Positions 10,095-63,385 of a stretch of DNA of 64,000 nt are shown here, piece by piece. A program made the position numbers and the translations under genes. The stretch comes from Owenia fusiformis. Lineage: Eukaryota; Annelida; Polychaeta; Sabellida; Oweniidae. Within the stretch, counting starts at the first letter, position 1; the number at the start of each line of letters is the position of its first letter. The notes beneath the pieces are model-generated. The model saw only the letters and a program-made list of their open reading frames with translations, had not been told where the DNA came from and searched no databases. Location of the stretch: NCBI GenBank assembly GCA_903813345.2, contig CAIIXF020000002.1, positions 26,612,455 through 26,676,454 on the forward strand, written 5' to 3'.

Positions 10095-10340
10095 TAGTTT
10101 TTAGCTCACATGGTGAGCTATTACAATCACTCACTTGTCCGTCTGTCTGTCCGTCTGTCAACATTTGGCCACTTTTAAAAGCTCTGTCAATAGGATTCCT
10201 GTTTTAATTATTTTTGTTCAACATCAATAAAGAAAACCCCCACATTACTCCTGGTTCAAAAGCTCGCCTATTTTCAATAGTTTTAGTCTCTACTTTCAGC
10301 TCAGTTGGGCACAGATTTAACGAAAACATGGTGCATGAAA
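10095..10340 (+). repeat. Repeat starting with 'agctcacatggtgagct' hairpin
   Basis: A short perfect hairpin (AGCTCAC...GTGAGCT) is followed by 'cacttgtccgtctgtctgtc'. This opening resembles dispersed repeats I know from marine invertebrate genomes ('agctcacct...gtccgttgtctg'). It abuts the reverse-transcriptase remnant that follows. Boundaries are approximate and its link to the retroelement is not shown. Confidence 0.4.
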
Positions 10341-10697
10341 GAGGTATCAAAGAACGAAGAAGGGACAACAATATGTTACCGAGAAAAGCTAGGCTAAAAA
10401 ATATTTCACCGATATTTAAAAATGGAAGAGAAATCTATCTACTGTCGCACTTATCAGAAAACAACCTCTTTCCGCAATGCCAACAGGGCTTCCTACCATG
10501 CCGGTCATGTGTAACCAACCTCTTGACGACGCTTGAAAAATGGACTGAATTTCTCTATGGTGGCAGCAAGTACCTAGACTTTAAGAAAGCATTTGACAAA
10601 GTTCCCCTGCCCAATGAAGGAAAATTGAAAATCTTGGAATGGGTAAGGGTAATGGAATGGGTGGTTGAAATCCTTCCTCGGAGCAAATACAGGAAAT
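10340..10697 (+). pseudogene. Reverse transcriptase remnant, 5' part (CR1/L2-like non-LTR element)
   Basis: Translation gives degenerate reverse transcriptase (RT) signatures: a 'SPIFKNG' block (compare P-hydrophobic-KKG of non-LTR RTs), 'QQGFLPCRSCVTNLL' (compare the QxGFRxGRSCxTQLL motif) and 'YLDFKKAFDKVP' (the first catalytic Asp block, normally D-h-x-KAFD). The endonuclease is absent. The reading continues to about 10697 ('WVVEILPRSKYRK', like the 'WIxxFLxxRxQxV' step) and then breaks off. It resumes at about 11559, so the two parts are one element interrupted by an insertion. Many frame breaks; certainly not functional. Confidence 0.75.
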
Positions 10698-18751: not shown

Positions 18752-21700
18752 GTGTACAGAAAGACTGATCCCAGGAAAGAGGGAATGAATAACATGATGA
18801 GAAAATCATGGATGGGTATAGTGTTTGTTATAATGGTAGTGGCCACAACATATTGCAATGCTGTAGTTGACAAGTTAAACAAAGTTCTAAGTTCCCCAAG
18901 GCCCCCACATGGACTGACACCTAGTAGCCCACTGATAGAGTTTGTGAGTATAATGCACATCAAGTTGTATTTTATGTTTATTTAGACTGCATCTAGTGAC
19001 TGATTGGTTCACTAAACTGTCATCCACAAAAAATTGGAGACAATAGAGAGATTTCGCACCTAGTGAAAGTACAACTTATAACTTATACTTATACTTATAG
19101 GTAAACGTACAAGGTGTTTCATAATGTGAGCTTTTCGTCAGGAAAGATCTTCTCGGACTGTAATAAATACAGGTCAAAGGGATGCCATTTGTACTTTCCT
19201 GAATTGTAGCATGTTTAGTTGATCCAACTGTGTTTGTCTAGAATAAAATAGGCTCATATATAGTACATATGTTATAGACCCATCTCTTCTCAAATTGACT
19301 TTTTGGAGATGCTCGTTATGAAACACCCTGTATACGGTCATATGTTGAGCTACTGAATGGGTCGTTTCCAGGAATTGCTAGAACCTTCTGGTTTGATTGG
19401 TGTTTCAAATTGATGGTTAAATTATTTGATTGGATACTGTTCCCACTCAGCCAATTAATTTTAAAAAATGCTCGCGGTCAATTGTTCCACACACATGTAG
19501 GCAAATCTTTATACGGAGATCCAACTGTATACGTTACCATCTACGTAAATATGCCATTTTGTAAGTTCATTGAACTTATACTGATCATGAAAACATTGAA
19601 ATAATCAACTTGTTTATGTAATGACTCACTTTAAAGAATCATGACTCCCTTTAAAGGATCGTGTTTATAATACACTACAACTACAAGGACACGGAAGCAA
19701 GCATTTAATTATAATGTGCATAATCTACACGTGCAAATGACAGTGCATTCATAGTCTCTCGTTGATGGATCTTTTCTATAACGGAATTAGTTATGTTCCA
19801 TTAAGTACAATTTAAATTTAATTTTAGTAAATATAATAGTTCGACATGACCCTTCAGGCCCGTAGCCAGGGGGGGGGTTCACATGGTTCGGGCGAACCCC
19901 CCCCCCCCCCCCCTTGGCCAAAAATTCTTTCAAAATCATGCAGTTTTTCACCATTTTGAGCACTTTATAAGTGATTTTGGCCCTTTTTGGACCAAATTTG
20001 TCAAAAGTGAACCCCCCCTGGAATTTTCCAAAAAGTGAACCCCCCTTGGCAAATCCTGGCTACGGGCCTGCCCTTTAAACTATACGTATACGTATAAGTT
20101 GTACTTTCACTTATGTGCGAAATCTCTCTAATAACAATATGTCATCACTTATAGTGTTGAAATATTGACAGTTGATGTCACATTATTTATGTTTATTTAG
20201 AATGTGTCTAATGACTAGAGATCCCCTCTGGTGTAGTGTCTCCAACTAGAATTTTCAATTTGGTAGTCAGGGAAATGACCATCAATGTATCTCGATATAG
20301 ACCATTCAGCCGAGACAATACTGCCATCTATATTATCCATCTCCATCCATCCCCCATGTACATGTACCTGTAACTAATCTATCAAGATCAAAAAATATAA
20401 AAATTGCCAGGGTAAAATTCACAAAGGTACATGTTGAGAAAAAGTTAACTAAGTTCACATGCGCAGTATTTGTATATAATGTTGACTAGAAAGAGGTTAG
20501 TACATTCTAAGAATAGTTTGAGTTGTTTATCATGCAGAATTGAAAGATACAGGAATTCCCCTTTTCATGTAAATGATTCACATTTGAAAGAAAGTAGTTT
20601 ACATTTGCCTGACTACACAGTCGTATAGTATTCAGCATGTACGTGTATGTGTATGTTTAAATGTTTATTTTCAGGAAAAACATGGGTATAAGGGATGCGG
20701 GTATGATAATTGGTAAGTTGGTTTGTTTGATTGTTTATCACCATTGGAATAATTAACAGAAACAAAATGGTTCTTAATACTAGTACAGTCATTTTTCTTT
20801 ATCAATTTGTGTAACCATGTTGTTGAACATACTGTATAGAAATAAATAATAACTTTGATCTAATTCTGTTATATTATTTAAATCATTTTCCACGACTTTT
20901 TTCCACTTTTCTAAAAAAGTGTTAGGCCAAATCTCAACTGATGCAATGTTAAAATTCTTCAAAACCTTGGTTTCATCATTCATCAGCTGAAATGTTTATG
21001 ATTACTCACAATATGTACATTAACAGGGTAATCCCATTGTATGCCACTGGAGTTTTAGATAGATTCAACCAACACTTTTTGATAAGAGCGACAAGTACAA
21101 GCTTTTACATTGAAGCCTATGGAAGTCTGGCAAAAAAAAATATATATATATGGTATCAGATTCATACAATAGTATGTTTTTGTTTCATTTCAAGTGTTTT
21201 AAATTTATTGCATATTTTTAAATAACATCAATCTAGAAAATCTGTCTTTTGAAACATTGACTTTTAACCCTTAAACTTGTGTACAATTTCAGGTGTTACA
21301 TTGATGATGAGGGGGAAGGGCACTATTGTATGACCTGCCCAGAGTTCATCATCCAAGATGGCTGTTCTGGGGAATGCTGTCGTAAAAACAGAGGCGTACA
21401 AGAGGGTAAATTTCAGTGCGCTAGTACAGATCGTGATGTAAAGCGTCCAGGTAAGATTTATATAGTTCAGGTGGTTCAGTTTGCATTCGCTGAAAGTTGT
21501 AATGGGGATGTGTCCTGCATTTAACTACAATGGCAATAGAAATTCGTAACAAAATACAAAATCGTAAACAGTTAATCCACTGTTTTACATTCTTTTATCA
21601 GATTTTTCTTTCACTGATAGCAGAACCATGTGATAGGCGATGAATGATAGCCTAATTCATTTAATATTAGAAAATGTCTAGGTGTATATACAGGATGTCC

Positions 21701-24700
21701 CTAAAAAGGCCCTGCGTTTTTTGGTCACCCTGTATGTAAGTCATTTCTACTACTCATGTCTCATTTTACACATCTTTCCAGAATGTCCAAAGATTGAGAT
21801 TCCAGACAGTAAAATAACCTGTCACCCTGACAATCGCATAATGTGGATTCAAACAGAGTGCCTCGTAGAATGCCTCAACACGCCTGTACACAAATACTAT
21901 ACATGTGCCCGAAGTGGCGCATACCTTCAGTGGGTTCCAGAGTTGTCTCAGGAGCTCTGCAGAGGTAAATGGGCTACAATCAGTATATCACTCTATTGAA
22001 TATATCACAAATCATTAGCAGCATGGGATTGTACCTCCTTTAAGATGATTTTTCAATTTTAGAAACCCCTAATTGGTCTAGTTCTTACATGTGATAGCGG
22101 ATTCAAATCTCATTACAGTCAAATATATTTTTATTTGATTTCTCAGTTATTTGGAGCACTTCACTTTCTCGATGTTTTTATGTATGATAACATGTTAGAT
22201 CGGTTACTTTCATAGGTTATAAAATATAAATGATTAGTGAGAAAATTCTACATCTGAAAAATAGGAAATACTTTAAGCATAGGAAATTACTTGAAGCAAA
22301 TTGTTACAAATCATATTTTCAGTTGAGGGAACTACTCATACTGCCATTGATACAACTACTCAAACTGCCATTGATACAACTACAATCAAAATTGCTGACA
22401 CAACAACACCTGAGTTTGAATCAAGTCAGACTCTGTATGATATAGTTAATGCTTCAGACAAAATGTATAATCTCTCACAAAGCACAGGAACTATTGGTAA
22501 ATATTAATTTGATACATGTACTGTATTCTCTCTAATGAGTGCACAGTTCCAATGAGCACACATGCAACTTTTATGTTGAATGTGGTCCTAAGAAAAATAT
22601 CAATATCTCAAAATCCTTTTGAATTTCAATTTGGAAACTGTACTGTGCACTCATTAAAGAGAATACAGTTTGATAGAAAATATTTCTAAAAATGACTAGG
22701 ACAGCATATATGGCAAGTACACATTGATGGAAGGATTTATCATAGATCACTATTAAAGGAACTAGAAGGGACATCATATTTTTTGCTTTCATCATTCCAT
22801 GGCATTCCTGTAACAGTATTCCTAAAAGTCTATGACTGGATGTCTCCCTCCAAAAATTTAATTTCAGGAAATAAAGTTATGATTGTTAGAAAAACATTTG
22901 CACAATTACATTTGCACTCTCTCAATTCCTTCTTATTGCCTTAAAACTGAGTTAAAATCATGAAACAAATGTCCATGGGACATAAAGGAAAGTAGCATAA
23001 ATTGGTTTTTCATATCCTCCTGTCTCTTAGTTAATGCTGAATTTTGATATAAATCACTTGTATTTACGACGAAGTCTAACAAAGTTTCGTATCAGTAACC
23101 ACAAATTAAAAATAGAAACGGGTAGATACAAATACCCAAAATTAAAGATTGATGAAAGAATTTGCGAGTTTTGCAATTTAATAGAAAAGAAAAACATATA
23201 ATGCTCTCATGTAAAAAATACATTATATATAGAAAGCAAATGCTCGATAACTTGAATCACACGGCAATCCAATTAAACACCTTTTCAACATGGAGGACGA
23301 TTACATTTTTTCCAATATTGTATGTCTTGTGAAAATAAAGAAATTGAAATTGTAGCAGAATTTATTCATAAATGTAATATAACATAGAAGGGTGTGATAT
23401 ATAACATAAACAATGGACGCGTATCACAACCACCATTCATGTACTCATCCATGATACATATTTATTTGTTCATTTATTTACTTATTTATTTATTATGAAG
23501 TATTAATTGTGTGTGTTGTTATATTATACTGTTTTCTGTTGTATTGATATATTGTAAAATTAGTGTTTACTTTATGTACACTTAACCCTTTATCACAATA
23601 AAGTGTAATAAAGTTCACAAATCTAAATCTAAAGCTTGTACTATCTGTCATGGATATTACTGGAAAACTAATTTTGTTTCGCTGTGAATTATTTTATTAA
23701 TACTTACATTACTACAAATGCTGTTAATCCTTGTAATTTCAACAATCCTGGACAAACATGTAGTGGACCTTTCTTACCCACTAAAATGTTTCTTTTAATT
23801 TTTAAGATGAAGCAAAGAACAAATACTTAGGACCTGTGGTTGGGGTGGTAGCCGGTGTGGTTTTCATGGGACTTATCTTTCTTTGTTTCTGTCTAATTCG
23901 AAAATGTTTGAGAGATCCCAAATGGAAACCTTTAAAGAATCGCTTCATCAGATGCAAACCTAAAGAAGAAAATCCAGGTATTTTATCATTTTAACAATGC
24001 TTGAGCAATTGAACTATTTTGAAAAGCAAAATTAGATTTAGTAAATCTACATAAAAACATAGTCAAATAGGCAATATCACCAAAATAACAAATGATCATG
24101 TTATTATAGATTATTACAGATTTGAAAAGTTCTCATATTGCCATACTGTACTTCATGTATTCCATAAACCCATTAAGGAGAATCATATCTATCTGAAAAA
24201 GGTGCTGAAGAAGTTCCCCTAAATGGTCAGGAATTCGAAGAGGTTGAGGAGAAACCTCGACATGTAGAAAACAGCAAAGCAAATGCTGTAAGCAATGACC
24301 CAAAAACTGAAGAACACAATCTAAATCTAGGAAAGACTGCATGTGAGAAAGAAGGTATTTTGAGTTTGCTGTCCATTTTTCTAATATAATTCTTACTGTC
24401 AGTTCTTATTATCCAATTTTTATGTCACCACCCAAAAGTAGTGACATATTGTTATGGTTTCTGTTTTTGTGACGATGGTTGACGATCGGCAGTTGGCGAT
24501 CAGCTGGTGGCAGTTGGCATCTGTAACAAATTCTTAAAGTCCCCATCTAAAGTTTGAAAATATTTTTTTATCATTCATTTACTATTTGTCAGGACTTAAA
24601 AAGTGATTTTAGAGAGTTTTGAACGAAAAAAAAATTTTGAAAAAAAAGTTGTGAACATTTCATTTCTCAAATATTCAAATTTCCCGCCATTTTTCAAAAA

Positions 24701-27700
24701 AAGTTGAAATTTCTTAATCATCAAATATTTCTTAATGCATTTCAAAAAATATTATCTTTTTAACACCAATGCAAAGGTTGAACAAAGGACACACTATTTC
24801 AATAATAAAATGCCATATTTAATGGGCCATTTTAATGTTTTAGCATATCAAAAATATTTTGAAACATTAGTGATGTCACTAAGGTACAAAAACTTTTTGA
24901 AAAAAATTGAAATTTTTTTTTCGATGTCAATCTTTTCTAAATATGTTAGACTTTCATAAAAAAACAATGTTGATTGTCTAACCAGGTTAAAAGGAAAAAT
25001 AAATTATGTTTTAGATATCATTGTACCATTGGTTTCTATGAGAACTAAAATTTTGAAATGCATTTTATTCAGAACAATTTTCATGCACTGATAAGTTCAT
25101 TTCTTGCTTATTTATGAACCGATTTTCTTAATTTTTTCGGCAAAAAACACGGGAGGATGAATGCTATGCATTGGTATGAATTGTGGCTAATTAGAAGATA
25201 TGAGTGACCTCTAAAAGTTGGTTTTAAATAAATTCACAAATTTTGGAACAAAAAGTCTATCAAAAACCACTTTTTGAAATTTAAAAAAAAAGTTTCACAT
25301 ATCACACTTTGATAACATTAGGTAACACTACAATTTAAGCCAAAGTGGTTTAAACTTTATATGGGGCCTTTAAAACTTCCAGTAACTTAACAAATACTGT
25401 TTAGACAACTCTACTGACTTCAGTTTTTTTCAAAATCATCTTCAAGTTTTCAGAAGTTCAACTCTGACCTTATATTTAAGATTTGACCTTCAGTGACCTT
25501 CTCAAGGTAAAAAAAGGTCAAAAAGGTATTTTTTCAACTTGCTTAAAATTGACCATTAATTTATTTTTCTCGAAAAGTTCTCGAAAGATCAAATCTGATA
25601 ATAGATTTGACTTTCAATTACATTCACAAGGTCAAAAAAATAGTTGACCTTCAATGACCTTCTCAAGGTCAAAAAGGTATTTTTTCAGCTTGCTTCAAAT
25701 TGATCAATTATTTTTTAAATCATCTACAAGTTATCAGAAGTTCAAATCTGACTTTAGATTTGATATTTCACCTTCAGTGACCTTCTCATGGTCAAAAAAG
25801 GTATTTTTTCAAATCGCTTCAAATTGACCAATTTCTTTATGCAAAATCATCTACAAGTTCTCAGAAATTCCTATGTGACTTAATTGAACTAATAATATTG
25901 TGAGCAATTAGGTGGTGACATTTTGTCATGTTAATGCATTGTCCAATTCTTACTGTCCAATCTTCAAATTCTTCTTATTCAATCTTTCAGTTTGTATTGT
26001 CCAATCTTGAAATTCTTATTCAATAGACTAGAAGCGAGAAGAAATAATCTTGATTTACGTCATAAAAAATTCAGTCAAACTGATGTCATATTTGGAATTT
26101 ACATGTAAAATTACATTTAGAAATGTGGTTTGGAAAAGAGTAATTATCAACTTTGAAAATTAAATTTTCTTTGAAAATGTGACTTCTAGGTTGGGGAGAT
26201 TCCCCATAGACCCCATGTTGTAAAATCACAAAAGTGAAAGGCCTCCTCTGGTGTTGGTAGATAATATTTTCTTTTACTGGACATCTTTTAACTTGTATCT
26301 ATCAGAAACATAAGGGTAATATGAAAAGTGAATCACTAAAACTGATGAATATTCAAGATTAAGGGAATTTTGTAATACCCCGCCATGTTATTTTCCCCGA
26401 ATCAGCCACCTGGTGGCGAAACTGGTAACTACCTACTCGCATCTGAGTAATTGTCCAATCATCAAATTTGTATTGTCAAATCTTCCAATTCTTATTTTTA
26501 GTACCTCAGCTGAGATACTGTTGACAGCTTCTTTTGAAAAAAATTGAAAAAAAAATTGAAAAAGATTTTGAAATAAAAGGATTAGTATTGAAATAGGGAA
26601 CTGAATTTAACATTGTTTTTCTCTCAAACCAATTGTTGAAAACATTCTGTAAAAAACACTGTCATTTATGTAATGGTCACTGATTGACAACAATTTAATG
26701 CAAAAATTATTTATATATATTTTATTTAACTGTTTTTGTGAACAAGTTTTTTTTTTATAGTGCAATTGTTTTTTTTGTTCCTTTCTACCAATTCTTCAGA
26801 ATGAAATAAAAGATCTCTATTGGAACAAAATAGCATATACAACATTTTCTTAGACCTCTCAATATTGTAGTTAAACAAAGGAAAGTTTGGTTCATTTAAC
26901 AAAACGTATTCAAAAAATTAAACCAAAAAAAACAAAAATAGTTAAAAATTGGAAGTGAACCTTTTATTTCAAGATAGCTTTTTGAATGCACCAAACTTTC
27001 CTTTGTACAATTTCAATATTGAGAGACCTAAACACAATGTGTATATGTCGTTTTGTTCCAATGAGGTTCAGAGAGATGTTTCATTTCATTCCAAACATAT
27101 GACATAAAGAACAAAAGAAGTGTCTGATGTGTTTTCTAAAAAAAATATACGTAGAGAAAAGTATATTTTTTCAAATTAAATTGTTACCATTCAAAAGATG
27201 ACCATTAAATTGATGATGTGTAAAATTTTCAGAATTTTACCTGTTATTTACCTATATCACTATTAAGTATTGGATAAGAACCTATATAACACTGGGGCAA
27301 ATTATGAAAGTATGATTGTGAAAAGCCTGCACATACAAAGGTGAATTCCATGCCAATTAATAAGTATAAGAGATCGACTTGTCAAAAAGTTCTGGCTTTT
27401 CAAAATGCAACATTTCCTGTGTTAAAATGTGTTTTATTTATTTTAGATACTGAGGATAAAGATGTACACAGGTTTACTCCTGTAGCTGTAGGACCTAAAA
27501 GTACAGATGATAATGATTACAGTCTGTCTTCTTTAAACCTTGGACCAAACAAGAAGGATGATTATCCAATTAAAATAATGCCTGAACTTTCTGCTAGTGA
27601 AAATACTTTTGAGTTTATTGAAAGTAAACGTGAATCTGAAGAACTTGAAGCATTGATAGGACCAAAAGAAACACCAAATAAACCCTCGATCTCTGCACCT

Positions 27701-30119
27701 GATTCAAGTTCTCCCATACCACAGATTTCCCCTGCAGGATTATCTTCCATAGATAGTGTACTATTTAAGTATCCTAAAGATGCAAATCCTCATGCAGGAG
27801 GTGATCATATCGTTGGTGTGATCGATGAACCAAAGAGTGATGGTAATATGAAGGCTGTTCCAGAGCTATGTCCCTCTCCATCGTATGACTTTAGCGAACC
27901 AGGTATGCAAGCAGCTGGTGGGTATGTTGTAGAGAGTAATTCAATGGGAATCGATTTAGTACCTGTACGTGAAGAAGGAAAACCTAAGGAGAATTATGGA
28001 GGAGCCATAAAATATGACGAACCACAAGCCAAGGATCCCAACGAGCATCTCAAAACATGTAAGTTTAGAGACAACCAATGCAGGTGCTTCAACTCTAATG
28101 AATCTCTTGGTTTGAGTATATTCAATTAACAGTCAACACCTTGTGTTTAACATTAAAGGTGCAGTAGCCACTCGAAAAGGTAGATTGCTGTTGTTTAATA
28201 TGATCATTTTTCAGTTTCTATGCTAATTCTTGCATTTTCTTGTTAGTACATCCTGATACAATTACATGAATTGTGAAAAAGACAAAATTGAAACTTGAAA
28301 GTAAATCCCTATAAAATGATCAACTTATTTATAATGTGTTGATAATAGAAAATCAAAATGGATTCATATATCCATGACTTTATTTTTTACAGGGGTTGAA
28401 AAATTGAGAAAGAATGATGTATTACTAGACGATATGTGGCAGATGTTGGAGTTCCAAAAATTTCTTCAAGTCATATTGGATCCAGGGGATGAATGGATTT
28501 CATTGGAATATGAATGTCCCGTTAAACCTATTGATATTGAACATGGCATTTCTATGAATGACTACATTGAATATGCAAAGTATGTAGCAACTACATGTAT
28601 AGTGTAGAAACCCAATAGTATTTTAGGCCTCTGAAATTTTCAATCTGTCTGGTGTTTTGACAATTTTTATCCTTGTCATTCAAATGATTTGTAGAACAAA
28701 AATTAATTATATTTTTTTTATTAAAATATTTTATTATAGTGTCACTAGTGTTAAAAGTATACATACAATGTCAAATACAAAGTAAACTAAAACACTACCA
28801 GCCGGTGTCGGCTTATGAGACACTTCCTTCTACAATCTGGAACAATGTCCATTAAATAAATATACTATAATATACAATTATTGCACTGTTCAAATATAAT
28901 ATCAGCATGTTTTGGGAGTAAGCATTTTAAGTTGACTAGAATAAATATCTGTTGAGCAGTTGTTTTGATCATTTCAGACCCTCTCAATATTGAATTTCCT
29001 TTTTTGCCACATTTTAAATAGAGTTGAAGACAATAAATTTTGGATGTTTTTGTCATGCATAAGACTGATCAGTGTACCCAGGCCATCATTTGAGTTAATG
29101 TTTATATGGGGGGCTGTTACTTTAACATTGTCATAAAACTCTTTCCTTATGTCCTTATAATGTTCACATTGAGTCAAAAAGTGTATCTCATCCTCAATAC
29201 AATCATTATCACAGAGAATACATTTTCGTTCTTGCAGCGGTGTATTGTTCCATCTACCTGTCTCTATATTTAAGTGGAGACTTCCTGTTCGGAACTGAGC
29301 AAGTATTCTCCTGTGTTGTCTGGGCATTCTGTTTTTTAAGTACTGTTCAGTCACCACACCATATTTAAATTGACGGAATGTCCTAAGTTTGTTTCCATTT
29401 GCTTCATTATTTTTGTCATCCCATATGTTGGTTAGGAATGTGTCATTTTGATTCAGGTAATGTTTCAGTGTATTAAGAGCAAGTTTGGTTGAGACGTTTG
29501 TGGCATTTGTTATTGGGACTCCTCCTTTAACTAATAACTGCTGTGTTTTATAGTCCCAGCTAGACTTTCTCTTTGCAGACCATAAATGTATTTTGTGATT
29601 TGTCCTGGTTCTATCCATATTGTGAAGCCTCAAGTATAGTCTAGCACACTCAATATGTTGCTTATCGAGGAGAGATGACCAACCTAGGTCTCCCCTTACT
29701 GCCTCATTGCTTGTTTTTCGGCTCAACCCCAGGAACATCTTGCCAGCTCGGTTTTGGATGTTGTTCAGAGGTCTACGTCTAATACAAAATCAAAAGGGGT
29801 ATTGTTTATTAAAAGTTTGAACATACCTAGGGTAGTGTGGCATGAAATAGTCTTGGAGCCTTGAATAATTATATCCAAAAGTGAAAGTAAATGAACATGC
29901 ACAGTTATCTTTATCTTGTTATATTGAAGAATATTCTGTTTCAGGTCTGAAGGAAAAAAAAAACAGAGCTGCACCAAAAATACAATAAATGGCATTTTGA
30001 AACGTCATCCTGGTGTAACTATGAGTGAACTTCTTTTATGGTTCATAAAGCATCGACAATTTAGCAGTGTCAATAAAATTAAAACTTTTATGGAGAGGCA
30101 TGGACATAAGATTAACTAA
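18752..30119 (+). CDS. Single-pass receptor with death-domain-like C-terminus (10 exons)
   Basis: Exons: 18752-18943, 20675-20712, 21293-21450, 21782-21964, 22323-22496, 23807-23977, 24178-24354, 27447-28058, 28393-28579, 29945-30119. All junctions are GT-AG and phase-compatible, giving 688 codons and a TAA stop at 30117. Seen: a signal peptide (hydrophobic 'WMGIVFVIMVVATTYC'; translation may start at 18785 rather than 18752); a Cys-rich segment at residues 72-115; a six-Cys, sushi-like segment at about 130-190; a Thr-rich stalk with 'TAIDTTT' twice; a transmembrane helix at about 256-279; a Lys/Arg-rich stop; a ~290-residue acidic linker; and a C-terminal fold at about 590-685. The fold has 'DEWISLEYE' (compare the D-W-xx-L-A of death domains) and 'LKRHPGVTMSELLLWF', like the last helices of a death domain. 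By analogy with TNF-receptor-type proteins it would signal through death-domain adaptors; that is inference. The ectodomain is not a recognisable TNFR repeat. Introns carry several TEs. Confidence 0.75.
19108..19332. mobile_element. Short inverted-repeat DNA element, TA-flanked, intron 1 of the receptor gene
   Basis: The ends are 'tacaaggtgtttcataatgt' at 19108 and the complement of 'tacagggtgtttcataacga' ending at 19332. The length is 225 bp, with TA at both borders, as in Tc1/mariner-type miniature elements. No ORF. Confidence 0.7.
19855..20070. mobile_element. CAGGCCCGTAGCC-type miniature DNA element, copy 1
   Basis: Terminal repeats are 'caggcccgtagccagg' and 'cctggctacgggcctg'. It is flanked by CCCTT at 19850-19854 and 20071-20075, a 5-bp target duplication. 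It is 216 bp long with internal G- and C-runs and 'ggcgaacccccccc'. It lies in intron 1 of the receptor gene. Copies 2 (48591) and 3 (52597) have the same ends and also 5-bp duplications. Confidence 0.9.
21689..21734. mobile_element. Very short TACAGG...CCTGTA element remnant
   Basis: 'tacaggatgtccctaaaaag' faces 'ttttttggtcaccctgta' across only 46 bp, with TA at each edge. It lies 48 bp before the acceptor of receptor exon 4. The ends resemble the other TA-flanked elements here (19108, 38217). Confidence 0.5.
22520..22669. mobile_element. 150-bp inverted-repeat element in receptor intron 5
   Basis: 'actgtattctctctaatgag' at 22520 pairs with 'ctcattaaagagaatacagt' ending at 22669, followed on the inner side by 'tgcacagt'/'actgtgca'. 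The terminal inverted repeat is about 28 bp. No coding content. Confidence 0.7.
23035..23635 (+). pseudogene. Non-LTR retrotransposon 3' end, decayed, receptor intron 5
   Basis: The frame from about 23065 reads 'RRSLTKFRISNHKLKIETGR' then 'DERICEFCNLI', the same K/R-FR-x-S...L-x-IETGR tail followed by C-x2-C seen at 10.7-11.6, 28.7-29.8 and 31.0-31.7 kb. It then frameshifts. The 3' end is A-rich ('caataaagtgtaataaag') near 23600. It is inserted sense relative to the host gene. Boundaries are approximate. Confidence 0.6.
24422..25932. repeat. 1.5-kb repeat bounded by GTCACCACC/GGTGGTGAC, with internal ~140-bp tandem units
   Basis: 'atgtcaccacccaaaagtag' at about 24421 faces 'ggtggtgacat' at about 25912. 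From about 25400 to 25870 a unit of roughly 140 bp recurs: 'caagttctcagaagttcaaa', then 'gaccttcagtgaccttctca', then 'aggtattttttcaacttgct'. No ORF. It lies in receptor intron 7. It resembles GTCACCACC-starting repeats I know from marine invertebrates. Confidence 0.6.
26630..27190. mobile_element. Foldback-like inverted repeat in receptor intron 7
   Basis: The arm at about 26775-26925 ('gaaataaaagatctctattgg', 'caaaggaaagtttggttcat') is the inverted counterpart of about 26950-27120 ('gcaccaaactttcctttg', 'gttttgttccaatgag'). The centre is near 26940 in a run of A. Outer limits are uncertain. No coding content. Confidence 0.6.
28735..29785 (-). pseudogene. Non-LTR retrotransposon 3' part, antisense in receptor intron 9
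   Basis: An open frame runs 29738-28974 and extends upstream to about 29775 ('LNNIQNRAGKMFLGL'). It has 'NEAVRGDLGW' (the post-RT block ...NxAVxGDxGW of these elements), 'RRILAQFRTGS', 'LNIETGRW' and a C-x2-C-x9-H-x4-C tail ('CILCDNDCIEDEIHFLTQC'). The RT and endonuclease are missing, so it is 5'-truncated. Reading the minus strand, the 3' end has 'gtgtctcataagcc' with a small stem and 'gacactataataaa', matching the copy at 10.7-11.6 kb. A 254-codon uninterrupted frame marks this as the youngest of the set. Confidence 0.8.
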
Positions 30120-30964
30120 AGGTATGCTCAAAGTAAATTATGATGCCATACAGCCGTTTTTAAAAAAAATCTCAGAGGAAGTGTTACATGTTAAGGGTTA
30201 GAAATATAGGACAAGCGGGTCTCAGTTGATGGCACCTGTCATATACCCTGTTTATCGACGACAATGAGAGATTTAGTATAACATGCATGCATAGGACTAG
30301 GAACATGTATAATTATTAGTGTCTCACGGAATCCCAAGCAGAAAAGAGAGGGGACTCGGACTAGATTTTTTCTATAAGGTTCCAAGGCCTATGTATGCAC
30401 AGGCTCCAGAAATGCCTGAATGTTTCTATGCGCTGACTGAATTGAACAGAAATACTGAACTGGCTTCCAGAGTGCCATATAATTTAAAGATAATAAAAGT
30501 ATATAAATATATACTGTTGAATGCACATATACAAGAAATCGTTAAAATCAGCTTACATGTACACAGTTCATATTTTGTAAATGTTTTCTTTGTTCTGTTT
30601 CTGTGTAAAATAATGTACTTGACTGAGCTGGATATGAACTTACAAGTGATAGTTAGAGATTGATTAGAAAATAACCATGAAATGTAGAACTAGTCTTCAT
30701 ATTCTATTTATTTTCTACATGCATTATAATTGCTCAATCCTAACCATCATTCCGGTTTTAGTTTGCTTCACGCTTATAGAAGCTTAAAATTTTAAGGGGT
30801 GTGGGATTGAATCTGCCAATTGGACACTTTTAGGTAATTATGTATAATATAGACTGAATGCTTACATCGAAAAATTGTTTAAAAGCATAATTTTGAGATA
30901 GCCTTTGGTTGTGTGTTCCTATTGAACAATTCCAAGTTTAATGTACAAGGCTGATATTTTAAAT

Positions 30965-31660
30965 AAGGATCGGATTATATATAACTTTTATTGACATCTT
31001 GTATCATAACATGATTACATTAGTCATAACTATGAAAAAACTAAATATCTAAACTACAAATACTAACTAAGGCAAAAGTACAAAAATATATACGAGATAT
31101 ACAAAAACCCAAAATAAAGGTAGTATACATCATGATGAAAGGACAAGGTTACAAGGTTACATTTAAAGTGTGGTGCACATACCCTGCATTCTGACTACAA
31201 ATTCTTAAATGAATGATAAATGAATTTTCCAAAGTGTCTTTGTAATGTTAAGTTTTTACTTGAAATGAGATTGACAAATAAATGTTCACTATAGAGGTCA
31301 AAGTTACTTAGAATTTCACGAGCCTTAGTGTACAATAATTGTCTATGCTCATCATTCTTTGTACAAGTTAAAAGGAAATGACATTCATCCTCTATATGTT
31401 TACAGGTATTGCATAATCTTTCCTCTCTAGGTTTTGGTTTTGGCTTTGCATGTCTTCCAGTCTCAATCGCCAATCGATGAGAACTCATTCGAAATCTACT
31501 TATCGCCAATCTATAATTTTTATTATCTAATTTCAAATATAATTCAATTCTAAAATCTTTTTTGAACAATTTATACGTTCTCAGTATAGGATAAATGTTC
31601 AAATCATTTTTCCATTTTTCTACAAATTGTAAGCTCCTTCCTTTTACTATTGATACATTT
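30965..31660 (-). pseudogene. Non-LTR retrotransposon 3' end, downstream of the receptor gene
   Basis: The minus-strand frame 31602-31195 has 'YRLAISRFRMSSHRLAIETG' and then a C-x2-C-x7-H-x4-C knuckle ('CNTCKHIEDECHFLLTC'). The 3' untranslated region runs to 'caataaaagtt' near 30985. Its 3' end differs from the 'ctcataagcc' family, so this is a related but separate lineage. RT is absent. Confidence 0.7.
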
Positions 31661-32596
31661 TAAATATCAGTAACTTAAATTAAAAGATAGGATATTGTGT
31701 ACTCTTGAAACTTAGGCAGTATATAGATATAATACATAAACTATATTTTGGTATCAGTCTGCATAATAGTGCATGCTATTTTGCTAGTTTATTTATTCAT
31801 TTTCATATTTTAAAATACCAATGAAATGCTGGCCTTTTTATTAATGAACTATTTTCAGAAAGAAACAGTGGATTTTTACCGAATACGAGTATGTAGCTAT
31901 AAAAATATTTTGTCTAAAGGTATACATGTATTCATTTAAACACTATCAAAACTGAGAATTTATACAAAAAATAGGTAAAATTCTTGGTGTTATATAGATA
32001 AAACAGTATAGGCCTATTGTAGACCCGGTTGTCGACCCAAGTAATTGTAATGCCCTATCTGTAAAGTACCTGTTACATTAGCCACGTGGGCTCACTGTTC
32101 GCCACTGTGTGGCTAATTTTGGCATTGATTTTTGATTCATTTTTTGTATTTGGCGTGCTGGTGGATATCTTACTTTAAAACTATTAGATTTGCCCACAGT
32201 GTATCCATTGCCGTGACCCACCATTAGCCCCAACGTATTCACACGGTGGCGAATGGTGAGACCACATGGCCTAAGTCGGACGGCCCCATAACATGAGGTT
32301 GCTGCCTTATATTAGGTCTACATGTATCTTGTACACTTTGTCGTTGATGCAGTTAATACTGAATATTAGCTTTTTATTATCATACTCATTACATATGTAG
32401 AGATAACATTTTTATTTTATCCTACACAGCATTATCTAGCATGTGGCTCTGCCGCTGTTTGGTGTATATAATGTGTAGATGATACAGATGTATGTGCAAT
32501 AGCACAAGTCATGTTTGATATTTGGCCATTTACAATGTCAAGCATTTGAATGAATACATGGTGTTGGTTGTGAAGTGTGTTTCATATTAGTTTATC

Positions 32597-32829
32597 TAAA
32601 GTGCTCACCATAAATAAACGACACCTGAATTTTCTATCACCATTTCCAGACCAATTTGATTTGAGACTTCGTACTTTCCAATAATGTCTAGATACACAGT
32701 TTTGTATATTTTACATTTTGTATACTCTCATCCACTGATGTATAGTCTCTTGAAAATTCTCTTCTTTTTAACATGGGAAATCCTCACTTCAGCAAATCCA
32801 GGTGTCATTTGTTTATGGTGAGCACTGTA
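32597..32829. mobile_element. TA-flanked miniature element, GTGCTCACC ends
   Basis: 'taaagtgctcaccataaata' at 32597 pairs with 'tttatggtgagcactgta' ending at 32829, continued by 'cgacacctga'/'ccaggtgtca'. The element is 233 bp with TA at both ends, the pattern of Tc1/mariner-derived elements. Confidence 0.75.
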
Positions 32830-32833
32830 CATG

Positions 32834-33439
32834 CAGGGTGAGCCAAAAAATAACACAAACAAATCTCCATAACTCAGTCATCCAGTAAATCGAGTAGCCA
32901 TGATTCAATTTTCCCCCGGCCTGGGGCTTCGGTTTATAACGTAGAGGGAGGGAGTCAAGGCAAATGGTATAAGGGGTTCGCAAGACAGAAAAGGTTTCAA
33001 CAAATTACAGAAAATTGTATGCGTACTCATCAAGTACATGTAGCTAGTGTAGATGTTTGATTCATTGTTCCCGCGAAAATAGTCATCTTTCTGAGAGTGG
33101 GGTTCGTTCCAGGCCTTTGGTTTGTTGGTCTTTTAGAAAAGGGGTTGTTACCGGCCAGGTTTTTGTTTTATAAAGAAAGGGGGATCCACGGCGAATGGAG
33201 TTTACATGAGGCCCACAAATCCCCTCTCACTATGCCCATGCATCTTGAGCTGTAAGTTGACAATATCTTTGAAATGGCTCCAAAGATAAAAGTTTAGGGA
33301 TTCATATCGAATGACCAATGAAACGTTTCCAATGAAAGAAAATTGAACAAGGTTTAATTATGCCAAATATTAGTTCAGATCCTTGTTGGAAAACGGAGTA
33401 ATTAACATTTGTTTGGGTTACCCTTTTTGTCTCACCCTG
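32834..33439. mobile_element. Inverted-repeat element with CAGGGTGAG ends
   Basis: 'cagggtgagccaaaaaataa' at 32834 faces 'taccctttttgtctcaccctg' (complement) ending at 33439, with 'acaaacaaat' against 'atttgtttg' inside. It is 606 bp long, starts four bases after the previous element and has no ORF. Probably a Tc1/mariner-type non-autonomous copy. Confidence 0.65.
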
Positions 33440-34295
33440 TAGAAGTAAATGTAGCAGTAAACCAACTGACATATTTATTTATTTGCCATCTATCAACAAA
33501 ACCTACTAGAAGTAGCACGTTATCTGATTGTTACGTTACGTGTTATACGTAATTGGGTAGACTGTAAGTGTGTAAGGCATACGTCACTGCTGTAAAAGCT
33601 TGTATTTTATTATAAAATAAAGTAAATCTTCCATTACAAAATATATCTGATTTGTGGCTCTTTTATCACTGGCAGATCTGGAAAGGCAAACATGTAGACC
33701 GTACATGTATTTTAAATGTCTCATATTTGAGGAATCAGTGAACTTTTAAACTGTAAACGATCAAGTTTTTCAGAAAACTGCTCAATTTTTTTAAAGGTGT
33801 GCCCAAATTATTTATTTTTGCACCCTCTCCAGGAATTGTATTCCTCGTGCTTTCAATAAAGAGAAGACGAAGTACCCATCTCTACATAAACTATTTTTTG
33901 TGTAATGGCTCTAAAATATGATTCGCAAAACTTGTGCGCATGCATTGCTTTCAGTGAGAAGCCAGACCCTTTCCCACCACCTGTTAATGAAAAAACAAAC
34001 ATGCAGAGATCTGTTGTTGAAGAAATGGCTGTGCTTAGTTTTTGGCTCGGTCTGTGTATAAGTGGAAATTCTATCTGAATTCTTGCGCACTTTGGCAGCA
34101 ACATATCTGCAACTGTTTTGGTAGCCAAGAATCCCTTGCAGTATTCTTCAGGATATATTCCAGAGAACAATATGTCTTGTTAGGTTAACTCAAGACGAAA
34201 TGAATGTGAAAAGATTTGACAACTGGGTCGTTTTTACAGGAAAGAAATATGGCGTAAACTGAACAACCTGCTATATTAAACTAGTTGGACCGCTT

Positions 34296-56457: not shown

Positions 56458-59400
56458 TTAATCTTGACTCGTATCAGGCATAGTCGAACTTTTATACAGA
56501 ATACATTCCATAGGCTTGAGTTCAGCGATATCATGTTGTGTATCAGTAGTGTCTCGTGGGTTTTCATATTTGGATTTAGTAGCGGCTCGTCTCATTCCTC
56601 TGCATAATAATATAATACAGACGATTGTAATACCCACAAGAAGTAAAATTCCACCAGTGATTAATCCAATTATCTCTGGTTTCAATCCACCATTCACGTT
56701 ATCACTAATGTTGATTTCTTCCACTTCACAATCGTCGAACAGGCATCTTTCGGGGTCATTATCCTTACACATATCACCGGTGAGACAGTCACTGAAACAT
56801 TTATGCATTGATTGGAGAAGTTCTATAATCAAATAAAGGGACTACATGGATGAAACTATTTTTTACATATTACTGAACTATCGTATAAACTGAGAGAACA
56901 GAAATAGAGTAACACTTTCTTCGAGCTCCGAGTGTGAAATTAGTATACCAAAGATGACTGTAGACTCATTTTTTAAAGCAGATTACAATGGAGTAACATA
57001 ATGGCCAATGGACATGCTACAATGGCGTAACATAATGGCCAAATGGACATGAAAATGTAGCATTAAAGCAGACTACAATGGAGTAACATAATGGCCAATG
57101 GACATGCTACAATGGCGTAACATAATGGCCAATGGACATGAAAATGTAGCATCCATTTGATTTTTATACTTACGATGTCATGTTTTTCAATTTTTGGACA
57201 CAAAGTCTCTTTTGCTCCCCCTCCAGTGTAAATGATGTATCTTCTAAACATGGAACTACAAAAAAGTCAAATGCAAACGTAATTGCAAATGAGTAGCTTA
57301 ATTGTATAATATAGGCTAGCTGTGTCGTGTATACACTTCAAATGATGCCTAAATAATTATTATTATGTCAGGCTGCTATTCAATAAATAAATGACACATT
57401 TTTTTTACTTTTGATACATGTCATATAGTTTATAAAGTGAATGATATGAAAACATACCGCATATCATACGCCATTTCTCTTCCGGATATAATTCGTGTCC
57501 ACGTGGACACTCTGTCTTTCGACTAATTGCAAATTGCGATCGATCAAAAGCATACTGCAATTGTGCATCAGTCTGTTTTGTAAGGATCTGCTCGTTCTCG
57601 CATGAGTCTTCAAATCTTTGCAATATCCTGTCCAACAAATTTGACCAGTTCTCAAATAAAGTTTGCATTTCTAGGTAGGCTTCATTAGTCATACTTTTAT
57701 ATTCCCCAATACGCAGCTGAAGGGTGATCGCCCCGCCATCAGTGTTTCCATCGCTAGTTAAACTATGCATGACCAGCAAAGAAGGTTCATCCGTGTCTCG
57801 TAAAATCTTTTTTATTGCGAGCTTTAAATCTGGCTCCGTTTCGTTATGGTGCAACAATGGAAGATTGTACTCCGTTTTAGTGATGTTATTTTCTTTCACA
57901 ACTTTGATGTAGCCAAGTCTCAGATACACACCAGGGAACGCAACCCGAGCTTCCAATACTCGTAACCTTGCATGGTCAGACAAAGCACTGCCGTGTTGAT
58001 TATTTGCTTCGCATAGATACTTGCCCTCGTCAGATCTTTTAGGATTAAACACTGTCAATTGTGCATTTGTCACATTCAATACTTCATTCTCTCCGTCGTT
58101 TAATATGCGTTTCCAAGTGATATTCGGTGTTGGAATACCTTTGACAACACACTTAAATGTTACACCATCGGGGTTACCAACTGTAGCTATCGTTGATTCG
58201 GGATGTTCAACAATTACAGGTGGCTCTATCAAGCTGATATACATTGTTGCTCTGACAGTAGCGATGTGATTGGATGCCACGCATGTATACCTTCCTTCAG
58301 AATCTAAGCTCGCGGTTGTATCAATCGTTTCATTACTCGACGCATTGAAAAGTTCACCTTCCCGTTCCCAATGTATGTCTTTTATTAAATCCCCAGTTGT
58401 CTTACAGACAATGGCGAACTTTTCCCCAAGTTTCACATTAAGCTCAGTTGGTATTTTTATTTCTGGAGCTTTGGCACAAAACACTTTCTTCTCCGTTGCA
58501 TGTTGAAGAACTTTCAAAATTGCATCTGTCAATTCCATTGCTTCATTATTAGAGATGTTTTTGCTATCAATGAGATCCGAAAATAATTCAGACAGTTTGA
58601 GGGTCATGTATTTCATATCGTCTGCACCTGGGGCGTCTGTATTATTGTAAAGATCGAAAAGTTCTAAGAAACTTATAAGCATACAGTCTTTGAATCCATT
58701 GCATCGATCCTCGTCCCAATAGAAAACAGTTGCATTTTCCATCGCATTTCGCCAGACGTACATAAGGGGAAAGGTCTCAGCGTTCTGTAACTGTTTTTCA
58801 TTTTCTAACTTCGTCTGGTTCATGGTCTTTTCTAGTTCGTTTACAGATTCGTCTTGTTCAATATTAGCGCCCTTTATTGTCAAAATCAATTGTTCTGGTG
58901 TTATTCCATAGTTTACAAAGGCGTCTGTAACATTGATTCCAAGCTTTCCCAAATCATCAATAGTCAGTCCATCATTTACATTTATCCCAATCGACCCCAC
59001 GTTCGAAGTGTTCAGCTCATCATTGTTTAGATCAATTCTTGAAGCATTGATCCCTGTTATTGTCTCATTTGTGATTTCAAAAAGGGATTGGGCAGCTCCT
59101 GTAAGAAATTCTTCAATCTTTTTATATTGCTCACACTTTCGTTTAAAAGCTTCTATTCTTATTGTTGTTTCATCCTCATCTGCGGTTTCATTTTGCATTT
59201 CGTATTTTTCTGTCACATCGATTGTACTGTTCAAGACATCTGATAGGATATCACTATCTACACCATCAGTTATGAGTCCATCTAAATCATCAACTTCCCG
59301 AAGGCTACGATACAGTTTATGGATAATATGTGACTGCCGGTATTCTATTTCCCGCTTCCTACGTCCAAATAAAATCATATTTGTTAGGTGTTCGATGACA

Positions 59401-61568
59401 GATTTTGCCGCATTCCAGAGTGATTCTAATATATTTCGAAAATTGATAGTTACACTAATGTTTCGCCATCCGAGTCGAAGCACATTAATTTCACAGAATA
59501 CATCAATCACGAATATGTCCTTTGTTGAGATTTCAGCAGAAAAACCACATTTTTTTATATCAATCAAACTTTGCAGACCATGATGAATTATCAAGTCCAC
59601 GAGTTTTAAACCCAATTTTACCGCTATTTTAACTGCCTCGATAGCAAGCTCAGTCCCTTTAAGAATTCCTTTAGCTGCTTCCAATCCAACTTGAGCTAGC
59701 GTGAGAATTCCCTTTGCGACATCTAATACTATTCTAGCCTTATCTACAACGAGTTGTGCTACACTAAGTGCCGCCTTTGCAATGTCAAATGGGAGCATAA
59801 GGGCTCGAACACCAATTTTGGCTATCTCCAAGGCCACATAAGCAAGTTTTCTTATTACCCAGCACGCAGCATTTTTAGCCAAACAAAGGAGATTAGGAAA
59901 TTTTATCATGCAGCTTGTCCAGGAGCAACATAGCCACGGTATTCTAACGAACAAAACTTTCTTTGTGCAGAACCTGCATTTGATCCCTGGGATACACCAT
60001 GGCTTACAATCTGTAATCTTACAAAGGTTGTCAATATTTTTTTGGGCTGCACTTAGTTTATTTAACGCTGTTTTTAGAGGACCCTTTGCTTCTTCCACAG
60101 CATCCTTTGCCCTTTGTAGCGCTTGAACGCCTCTATCGAATACAACATTTGCCTTGTCAACGTCACTCTTTTTATCTTCGAGCCTTAAATATAAATTTGA
60201 ATATGTGTACAACCTGAAAATATGACAATTTTCTTATTATATTACATTATTTTTTACATTTCATAATATGATTTTTTTGGCCTCTCCACAAGTAAAAAAT
60301 GTTTATGGCCGACGTGCTTTACAAAAAAGTATTGCAAATATGATCGTTTAATTTTTATTACCATTGTTGTGCTCTCGTAAGATCGCCTCTTGCTGCCGCC
60401 AGTCCATCTTGTGCAACCGTTAATCTGTCCTCTGCTTCGTTAGCAATGTTCTGAATAACCCGCCTCAGTGCATCACCAAAGCTCCCTTCAAAGGAGTCAT
60501 CTCCGCCAGGGAGAAACTGAACTGCCACTCTATATAGTAGATCTTTAAAAGGCGTGAAACCCGGAACTGTAGACTCGACATCCATTCTCGCACGGAATAT
60601 GTTAAATACATTTGCTTCAAAGCCAAATCCAAGTTTGTACAGAGATATGAACACGTCGACACGTTTTTTTAGACCAAGGAAATTAGATCTAGCAGTGAAA
60701 TGTACAATTGTCTTTTCTATGGCTTCCTCGCTAAATGCAATTTCCAATCCAAAGCCCTTCGATACCTCCAAGATATATCCAAATTTCTTGTAAGCAGTAA
60801 ACATACCCATCGCTCGCAAGGCATTCTTTCCTTTAAGTATGTTATACATATAATTAAACCTACTGCATTGCCCTAGCGACCCAACACTGTAGACAAATTC
60901 TACGTCGAGAGAGGGAAAATGAAGACCAAATATGTTGATATCCACAGATGCTTTCAAGCCATATCCTGAATAGTTTTCTGTCACATCCATGATTTCACCT
61001 GTTATTTTCTCAATCAATACCTTCGTGTTGTTCTTAATTTTCTCTACTTCATTATTGATGAAAGTTGTAACATTTGATTTTAAGACATCAATATTGAATT
61101 CAATTTCATCTTTAAATGTGTTCCATTTGCCTTTTATGTTATCGATTGCAGTCATTACTGGTTTGATCAAATCTGGAATTGATGGAAACTTGCCAGCTTT
61201 GATATCACTAATTGCTTTTTTAATCACGTCGATGGTTTCAGAAACCCCAATCTTAAATGTGCTGAATAGATCAACAGCGGTGGACGTTAACATCTCCTTG
61301 AATCTCAAAATATTTTCTGCAATTAGGCCCTCTAGATGTTCCACGATAATTTGAACTTCTAGCAAATCATTCCAAATACTGTACGTTGGAAGTTTCTCCA
61401 AATCATCAGAAACTTCATATGTGAGAAATCCATAAGCAATAACGTCGAAATTGAACACCCAGTTTTGAAGTATGGGTACATCTCTGAATGGGTTAACGGT
61501 AAGGTAGAACGAGGCAAACATACCGGGTGGATTGGCATTTGGAGCGCACCACTTCCTTAACTCCAAAC
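56458..61568 (-). CDS. Large extracellular protein with amphipathic helices, two Ig domains and a transmembrane tail (3' part)
   Basis: Minus-strand exons: 61568-60362, 60213-57458, 56822-56458 (TAA stop). The GT-AG junctions are in phase and give about 1440 codons; upstream exons are not identified. Exon A has long helices and conserved Trp/Cys. Exon B starts with coiled-coil heptads, a Cys cluster ('CKPWCIPGIKCRFC'), Ala/Lys-rich amphipathic repeats ('AKGILTLAQVGLEAAKGILK'), a furin-like 'RRKR' near residue 283, many N-glycosylation sites, two C-type Ig domains (about residues 580-760; 'GRYTCVASN', 'GKYLCEANN') and a membrane-proximal Cys segment. The last exon has a Cys-rich juxtamembrane part, one transmembrane helix ('IGLITGGILLLVGITIVCII') and a ~45-residue tail. 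I recall the Cys-cluster/helix block from uncharacterised cnidarian and invertebrate surface or matrix proteins; function unknown. A role in adhesion or matrix is a guess. Confidence 0.8.
56975..57153. repeat. Tandem duplication of ~89 bp in the last intron of the Ig-domain gene
   Basis: The segment starting 'aaagcagattacaatggagt' at 56975 recurs from 57065 ('aaagcagactacaatggagt') and ends at about 57153. Each half itself contains 'aatggmgtaacataatggcc' twice. The copies differ by two or three bases. It lies 20 bp from the 82-base candidate cassette exon. Confidence 0.85.
57174..57255 (-). CDS. Candidate 82-base cassette exon of the Ig-domain gene
   Basis: On the minus strand, 'ttttttgtag' precedes and 'gtaagtat' follows an 82-base open segment. 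Entered in phase 1 (as exon B ends) it reads 'VPCLEDTSFTLEGEQKRLCV' and 'QKLKNMTS' and leaves in phase 2. Exon D must be entered in phase 1, so inclusion shifts the frame and stops after about seven codons ('TSPINA', stop), before the transmembrane helix. Skipping it keeps the helix. It could be a real alternative exon giving a soluble form, or chance splice signals. Confidence 0.35.
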
Positions 61569-63385
61569 CTGTAGAATGAGAATAAAATGCATTTCTATGT
61601 ATCGTAAATGTACAATATTAAATGATTATATAACAGAACTAGAATTTGTTGTTTGGCTTCAATTTTGATTGTACACGTGTTCTAGAACTTTGGTAGCATT
61701 TGCGAGTTCATTCGCCAGCTGACGAAGCAAAAGCTATTTTCATGGCCAACTCATTCAAATTTTAATAGTACCTACTACTATTCGCGAATTCTAGTTTAGT
61801 TAACAAGAATTGTTGGTACATTACTTATATTCATATTTACTTATATCCTATTCAAACAAATGCAATGAATATAGCTCCGAAGTGTACTCCCACTTTCTGA
61901 CAAATGCAATGAGACACGTGAAGTATACTTCCATTATACCCAATTCTAACAAATGCAATGACAACTCAACTCCTAAGTGTTCTCCCAGTATACTCCCTTC
62001 TTACAAATTCAATGTAAAACTTCAAGTTTACTTCTATTATACCCCTTTCTAACTGTAATATAAATAAGAAGAGAAACTTACTACAAGGGCTAAATTGCCT
62101 CAATACCAAGTTATTTTAAAGGTAACCAGAGATTTAAAAGGGCTAATTATTATGCTATAGAGGCCACACTAGTCAGTTGAGCCCAGGTTGTCCACATGTA
62201 AAGACATAGGCAGTTGAAGATTAGTTTTAGATATAATTTTAGGTGTGCACACTTTAGATAAGTTAGATAATCAAGATAAGTTACAAATTACAAACGAAAG
62301 AAACATCTTACCAACAAGGAGACAAGAACAACACGCTAAGGTAATCAATTTATAGAAGTTTAGATGTTTAGAAGTTTAGGTAGTTTTGCATATTCTAGAG
62401 GTGCAATTTGTAGACGTTATTTTAATAGAAGAGCAGTTACTAAAGTTTGCAATTTATAGATGGTCCCAGAAGGACAATTTCTTAGATGTCAGTTTATAGA
62501 TGCTCATTGAGGTAGAAGTTGATTTTCTAGAAATGCTATTTTAGAGGTGCATTTAGACGTGCATTTAGATGTGCATTTAGAGGTGCAATTAGATGTGCAT
62601 ATAGAGGTGCATAATTTAGAAGTAATTGAAGTTTAGCATTATAGAAGTCTATATGGTAGAAGTTCATTTATAGAGGCAATTTTGAAGTACATTCCAGAAA
62701 ACTGCAATGTTTAGTCTCAATTGAGATTGTTTTTAGAGGTTAGATGTTCATACAAGTTAGATTGCAATATTGATAGTTATTACAGGTCCTATAGTACAGT
62801 GTTGCTAATCCAAGTAGCCAAGTTTAGTGCATAAGTAGCCAAGTTTAGTGTAAAATTAGCCAGCTTGAGTGTTCAGATTTCAACGGCACTGTTGAATTTC
62901 AAACAGCATTAAAATTACCTTGTATAAGATTAGGTATTGGGATCTCAGTCATTACATTGAATTTCATAAAATGTGGTGAAAAGGTGTGAAATGAGTTAAG
63001 TGTTGAGATTTCTTACTGATTTTTGCAGGCAGGCTTATTGACCACTTAAATAGAATTTTTAAGTGAGTGATACATTTTTAATTTACATTGACTTTATTAG
63101 AAGGTCATAATGACTCTATTCACATCAATTGAGTGAGTTTGAATTCATGCAGAGAAAAGTTTAGCCTTTGAATTTATCAATTAGAATTACATTATACATT
63201 TGGCTAGACTCAAATCAAAACAAATTGCATAATGCAAATGTAAATAAACAAACTGTACAGATCCAGAGTACATGTACAGTTTATTCAATTGAATTTTGAG
63301 AGTATTTTTGATTGAGACATTTGATTGATTTTATTTTTCAATTCTGTGTGAATAGAGCAAGTTTATTTATGTAAGGGTATAAGGA
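61569..63385. other. Upstream of the Ig-domain exons and 5' to gag; small tandem repeats
   Basis: No further exon of the minus-strand gene is recognised. 61686-61796 is a copy of the short dispersed repeat seen at 46.2 and 51.2 kb. 61850-62055 is a degenerate array with 'aacaaatgcaatga' and 'tactcccactttct' every ~50-60 bp. 62547-62620 has about six 12-bp units 'gtgcatttagag'. From about 62100 rightward the sequence is probably the LTR and/or leader of the retroelement whose gag starts at 63386. The LTR borders cannot be set without the other LTR. Confidence 0.45.

Follow-up and report, generated by a model that had tools for sequence, protein, structure and literature searches.

The window, by which we mean the whole 64-kb stretch of DNA that was analysed, contains a ten-exon gene that, judging from its sequence, most likely encodes a single-pass type I membrane receptor. 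We tentatively propose, giving it somewhat less than an even chance, that the C-terminus of this receptor is a very divergent death-fold domain, nearest to the branch formed by MyD88, IRAK, Pelle, and Tube. The gene itself we regard with high confidence as real. The evidence for the exon chain and the receptor anatomy can be read directly from the DNA, and the case for the C-terminal domain depends on comparisons with profiles of known death domains and on the junction between the last two exons.

Gene Structure and Coding Evidence

Rebuilding the gene model from the sequence yields ten exons spanning 18785–30119 on the plus strand (table 1), all with GT-AG borders and compatible phases, that together form a single frame of 2034 nt encoding 677 amino acids. 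The ten phase-compatible exons of the preliminary description are thereby retained; its length of 688 residues is not, because that figure was counted from position 18752, a GTG, whereas the first ATG comes 11 codons later, at 18785. Introns 3–8 (six of the nine) are in phase 1 and exons 4–8 are symmetrical 1-1 exons, an arrangement that is compatible with exon shuffling. Since most introns share phase 1, matching phase does not by itself prove that every exon is joined, and that one mRNA carries all ten is a prediction of the model.

Table 1. Exons of the predicted receptor gene, in window coordinates
Feature	Position	Strand	Content
Exon 1	18785..18943	+	ATG start, signal peptide, and beginning of the mature protein; hydrophobic segment within residues 9–31
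Exon 2	20675..20712	+	Residues 54–65, opening part of the Cys-rich segment
Exon 3	21293..21450	+	Cys-rich segment 1; no Pfam match; profile does not give a TNFR repeat
Exon 4	21782..21964	+	183 nt, symmetrical 1-1, six-cysteine module
Exon 5	22323..22496	+	Thr/Ser-rich stalk; N-glycosylation sequons at residues 222 and 229
Exon 6	23807..23977	+	Transmembrane helix at about 245–268, then a basic stretch
Exon 7	24178..24354	+	First part of the acidic cytoplasmic linker
Exon 8	27447..28058	+	Second part of the acidic linker; 612-nt open frame
Exon 9	28393..28579	+	First half of the C-terminal domain; candidate death-domain helices 1–3
Exon 10	29945..30119	+	Second half of the C-terminal domain; candidate helices 4–6; stop codon

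The composition of the 677-amino acid frame is coding-like, with a GC content of 0.50, 0.38, and 0.30 at codon positions 1, 2, and 3. Trained on 1357 codons from two further long ORFs at 57–62 kb in the window, a codon model scores the frame at +0.105 bits per codon, compared with -0.24 and -0.50 for the shifted frames and -0.21 to -0.34 for the reverse frames. Exon 8 stays open throughout its length in AT-rich DNA, for which base composition gives a chance of about 6e-8 to 2e-6 per frame. The remaining exons were compared singly with random stop-free stretches, a null for which exon 8 is too long: for exons 2, 3, 5, 6, 7, and 9, between 0.8% (exon 7) and 9.8% of the null equals the score (4.6% for exon 2), and exons 1, 4, and 10 taken alone carry no codon signal, with 31%, 39%, and 52% of the null equally high.

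A tblastn search of the window did not identify a second copy of the gene (next matches at E 2.4 or worse). Among contigs of IMG/VR and GTDB, none of the pattern matches to the C-terminal 125 amino acids (6 and 28, respectively) was confirmed as a relative. There was also no phage DNA match to 20601–28600, and scans of the window for Rfam families (at gathering thresholds) and for tRNAs were both empty.

The introns and flanks hold several features in their own right. Intron 1 contains a C-rich/G-rich repeat-like stretch (19860–20075) with several copies of GAACCCCCC, the two ends of which are complementary (CCCGTAGCCAGG / CCTGGCTACGGG). Intron 7 contains direct repeats, degenerate and 37 to 99 nt long, that are built around GACCTTCTCAAGGTCAAAAA (25420–25881) and an inverted repeat with 99-nt arms that are 75% complementary and 46 nt apart (26819–27062). 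A sub-threshold match to RVT_1 (E 0.006) on the plus strand at 10208–10696 points to a weak fragment of a reverse transcriptase. On the minus strand, 57408–60233 and 60361–61617 are open frames of 942 and 419 amino acids, the first with two Ig domains (Ig_3, E 7e-22), and these two long ORFs may form one membrane protein gene with 56461–56841, which encodes a hydrophobic segment on the same strand. Together with the gene structure and the repeats, these Ig domains suggest an animal, probably a marine invertebrate, as the source of the DNA.

Receptor Anatomy

Hydropathy analysis gives one N-terminal hydrophobic segment and one transmembrane segment; inspection by eye suggests that the signal peptide is removed around residue 26. 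Beyond it, the ectodomain contains 14 cysteines, eight of them encoded by exons 2 and 3 and six by exon 4, followed by a stalk with 21 serine and threonine residues between positions 181 and 240. On the cytoplasmic side, residues 275–557 contain 54 aspartate and glutamate residues versus 34 lysine and arginine residues, and this acidic linker of about 280 residues is probably disordered; a scan for three TRAF-type motifs gave one loose match, PKEE at 289. Hydropathy and residue counts therefore bear out the signal peptide, Cys-rich segment, Thr stalk, transmembrane helix, and acidic linker that had been described earlier.

The first eight cysteines lie at residues 61, 67, 78, 81, 90, 94, 95, and 108. 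Those of exon 4 lie at 120, 149, 160, and 178, with an extra pair at 132/145 and a tryptophan between the last two. A single symmetrical 1-1 exon with ordered cysteines and tryptophan is the usual form of a sushi module, and exon 4, with about 60 residues and its cysteines and tryptophan in order, has this form. The earlier designation of this segment as sushi-like holds for the exon form and the residue order, but not at the level of sequence comparison: Pfam searches of ectodomain pieces return nothing at E ≤ 10, sushi/CCP included, a PDB sequence search with the ectodomain pieces gives no match, and a home-made sushi profile scores exon 4 at 1.4 bits, a value equaled by 165, 356, and 263 of 2000 shuffles with nothing, cysteines, or cysteines and tryptophan held fixed. 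The same profile recovers nine of nine left-out sushi modules, one of them typed approximately, at 16.1 bits or more. An AlphaFold2 single-sequence model of exon 4 alone is uninformative (pLDDT 48). We also considered whether the first cysteine module might be a kringle, WAP, or Shisa-like domain; Pfam gives none of these for the pieces.

The order of a Cys-rich head, stalk, transmembrane helix, and candidate death domain is that of death receptors in general, and by eye the C-x2-C-x8-C spacing in exon 3 is like part of a TNFR repeat. These features could be taken to mean that the protein is a very divergent member of the TNF-receptor superfamily in which the cysteine-rich repeats have drifted past recognition. 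We consider this highly improbable, however, given that Pfam shows no TNFR match and that neither cysteine module separates from shuffled sequences on a TNFR repeat profile: exons 2–3 score 0.8 bits (equaled by 459 free and 279 Cys-fixed shuffles of 2000), exon 4 scores -1.6 bits (1354 and 1609), and exons 2–4 jointly score -0.7 bits (842 and 849), on what is a weaker test, as 3 of 11 true repeats are also matched by some Cys-fixed shuffles. The negative result with non-Toll death-domain profiles, detailed below, likewise argues against a TNF-receptor origin. The earlier view of the ectodomain as non-TNFR agrees with these results, and the segment is best called a Cys-rich head without family assignment, in which the cysteines would form disulfides.

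The C-Terminal Domain

The preliminary description called the C-terminus death-domain-like, and the evidence for this divides. Pfam gives three sub-threshold matches for the whole protein (Protocadherin, Afaf, and ATP-synt_D) and one for exon 9 alone (HicB), and the Death domain model PF00531 is missing from the rows with E ≤ 10 whether the query is the whole protein, the C-terminal 125 amino acids, a trimmed 106 amino acids, exon 9, or exon 10, with the caveat that HMMER filters discard most weak matches. The HMMER profile search that had been suggested earlier for both C-terminus and ectodomain consequently produced no family match, and a PDB sequence search with the C-terminal pieces produced none either.

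For our own profiles, 20 death-domain sequences were entered by hand, 18 of which matched PDB entries (IRAK1 and DR5 gave no match), and for the E. coli comparison set 85 ORFs were cut into 533 overlapping windows of 126 residues. On the profile of all 20 members, residues 552–677 score -0.4 bits, equaled by 227 of 2000 shuffles and 46 of 533 E. coli windows, in a setting where all 20 true domains, each left out in turn, score 16.9–57.3 bits and are equaled by none of 2000 shuffles. A profile of the 13 non-Toll members is no more favorable (351 of 2000 shuffles, or 927 after trimming, and 97 of 533 E. coli windows equal the query), and 333 of 2000 shuffles reach the query on a profile of six non-Toll members. 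With a 12-member profile, 90 of 2000 shuffles equal the query and 91 of 2000 equal an N-terminal piece of the protein, a nearly identical fraction; among five other pieces of the protein the counts are 314, 1208, 1241, and 587 of 2000, with one unscored, and 12 of 12 left-out members score at least 15.8 bits with none of 2000 shuffles equal. Profiles of DED and CARD, built from four members each, give -1.6 bits (1019 of 2000 shuffles) and -0.8 bits (464 of 2000), and the true CARD of APAF1 itself is equaled by 3 of 2000.

In contrast to these results, a profile of the seven Toll-branch members (MyD88, IRAK1–4, Pelle, and Tube) gives a weak positive signal. Residues 552–677 score 4.3 bits, equaled by 23 of 2000 shuffles (the same count on repeat), a fraction that, like the others given here, is uncorrected for the eight profiles tried overall, two of which had a Toll-branch core. 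None of the 533 E. coli windows reaches this score, the best attaining 3.6 bits, and 101 of 2000 shuffles that preserve residue class do so. Residues 566–677, a trim chosen by us, score 4.9 bits (5 of 2000), and an earlier six-member version that included MALT1 gave 4.1 bits (29 of 2000). Exons 9 and 10 alone score 1.8 and 2.6 bits, respectively, and the alignment passes in order over their junction. All seven members score above the query when left out (14.3–68.3 bits versus 4.3), as do 12 of the 13 other true death domains, which range from 3.5 to 31.4 bits, TRADD (5.6) and RAIDD (7.1) being slightly above it. Given that Fas, at 3.5 bits and 57 of 2000 shuffles, falls below the query, 4.3 bits neither shows nor excludes a distant death domain. 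We therefore treat the apparent resemblance of the C-terminus to the MyD88/IRAK branch as a weak lead from sequence comparison.

An AlphaFold2 model of exon 10 alone predicts three helices (pLDDT 76) where helices 4–6 would fall; these are consistent with the second half of a death fold and equally with other helical bundles. None of the 44 matches listed by Foldseek for this model reaches E ≤ 0.001, and the sole death domain among them is that of RIPK1, at rank 27. A DEK_C-like reading of exon 10 was also considered, and Pfam does not give it for the pieces.

These observations leave room for a serious alternative, to which we also assign a little under an even chance, in which the type I receptor is the same but ends in a small helical domain unrelated to the death fold, for example a helix–turn–helix-like protein-binding module, and signaling proceeds via another partner or via the linker. 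The absence of backing for a death fold from Pfam, PDB, and the general death-domain, DED, and CARD profiles speaks for this alternative, as does a Foldseek list for exon 10 made up mainly of histones and PEX14, none significant. Against it stand the Toll-branch signal, which no E. coli window equals, the ordered alignment of both exons 9 and 10 to that profile, and the position of Fas, a true death domain, below the query.

The Exon 9/10 Junction

Exon 10 encodes half of the claimed death domain, and the death-like domain thus depends on the exon 9/10 junction, which is the weakest of the gene model. It is conceivable that a genuine gene has been modeled with the wrong 3′ end, either because exon 10 is not joined or because exon 9 runs into the intron, so that the C-terminal domain is incomplete. 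The missing codon signal of exon 10 is compatible with this, as is a scan of 28600–34000 for acceptors with a pyrimidine-rich lead, in which ten open at least 36 codons in phase and that of exon 10 itself, at 29944/29945, is not among them. An acceptor 15 nt upstream of it, in the same frame, passes the pyrimidine-rich filter, and a longer frame, of 92 codons, follows the acceptor at 30387. Read-through from exon 9 meets a stop within ten codons, and intron 9 holds a reverse-oriented ORF of 271 amino acids that resembles a retroelement remnant and has no Pfam match. Conversely, the borders of exons 9 and 10 are GT-AG, their phases agree, and exon 10 is predicted to form three helices and raises the Toll-branch score. 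We consider a misplaced 3′ end unlikely on balance, and exon 10 is likely joined to exon 9. Polyadenylation-like hexamers, 35 of which occur in 22400–33000, are too frequent to be decisive.

The ORF in intron 9 (28977–29789, minus strand) and a second minus-strand ORF at 31198–31659 each have a Cys/His cluster that ends in HF-L-x2-C; the second also has no Pfam match, and both are possibly C-terminal remnants of retroelements.

Comparison with Known Receptors

MyD88, IRAK1–4, Pelle, and Tube, whose death domains are weakly resembled by both halves of the C-terminal domain, are cytosolic adaptors or kinases. The predicted protein shares with p75NTR and the TNFR-superfamily death receptors a type I form and a C-terminal candidate signaling domain, and differs in having no TNFR repeat. 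Among the matches listed from the open-licence literature, no title or abstract opening names a receptor that combines sushi and death domains.

The preliminary description did not recognize this arrangement and contrasted it with TNFR and UNC5 receptors alone. That claim of novelty is weakened by about 50 proteins of Crassostrea virginica that are described with a Cys-rich ectodomain, a transmembrane helix, a DED, a TRADD-N domain, and variable C-termini (PMC8195603). In common with these oyster proteins, the protein described here is probably from an invertebrate and has a Cys-rich ectodomain, a transmembrane helix, and an intracellular death-fold module, which here is a candidate; compared by description, theirs contain DED and TRADD-N, whereas here the DED profile is negative and Pfam shows no TRADD-N (PMC8195603). 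TNFR-caspase hybrid receptors with cDNA support are described for amphioxus (PMC2575513). They likewise couple a membrane receptor to a cytosolic domain of cell-death type (again, a candidate here) via domain shuffling, although the domains differ, Pfam showing neither caspase nor TNFR in our protein (PMC2575513). Judged against what is described for oyster and amphioxus, the contrast with TNFR and UNC5 receptors was too narrow, and the architecture, if its tail is a death fold, would be a further variant of a known theme.

Proposed Mechanism and Implications

If the tail is indeed a death-fold domain of the Toll branch, we hypothesize that the short head, with its 14 cysteines disulfide-bonded in two modules, would take up a ligand from its position on the glycosylated stalk, and that the flexible acidic linker would tether the C-terminal helical domain. 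Clustering by the ligand would then gather the C-terminal domains, to which death-domain adaptors or kinases may be recruited in the manner of Toll/IL-1 signaling. A stronger version, which we think doubtful, is that the tail of this cell-surface receptor itself bears a Toll-branch death domain, together with an ectodomain outside Pfam families, so that binding of the ligand could directly nucleate an IRAK/Pelle-type complex with neither a TIR domain nor MyD88 as intermediary.

If the tail is not a death domain, the gene would encode an ordinary lineage-specific receptor whose tail has no name. If it is a Toll-branch death domain, this would be a receptor that feeds directly into innate immunity at the level of IRAK/Pelle and, if true, a further case in which domain shuffling in invertebrates has yielded shortcut receptors.
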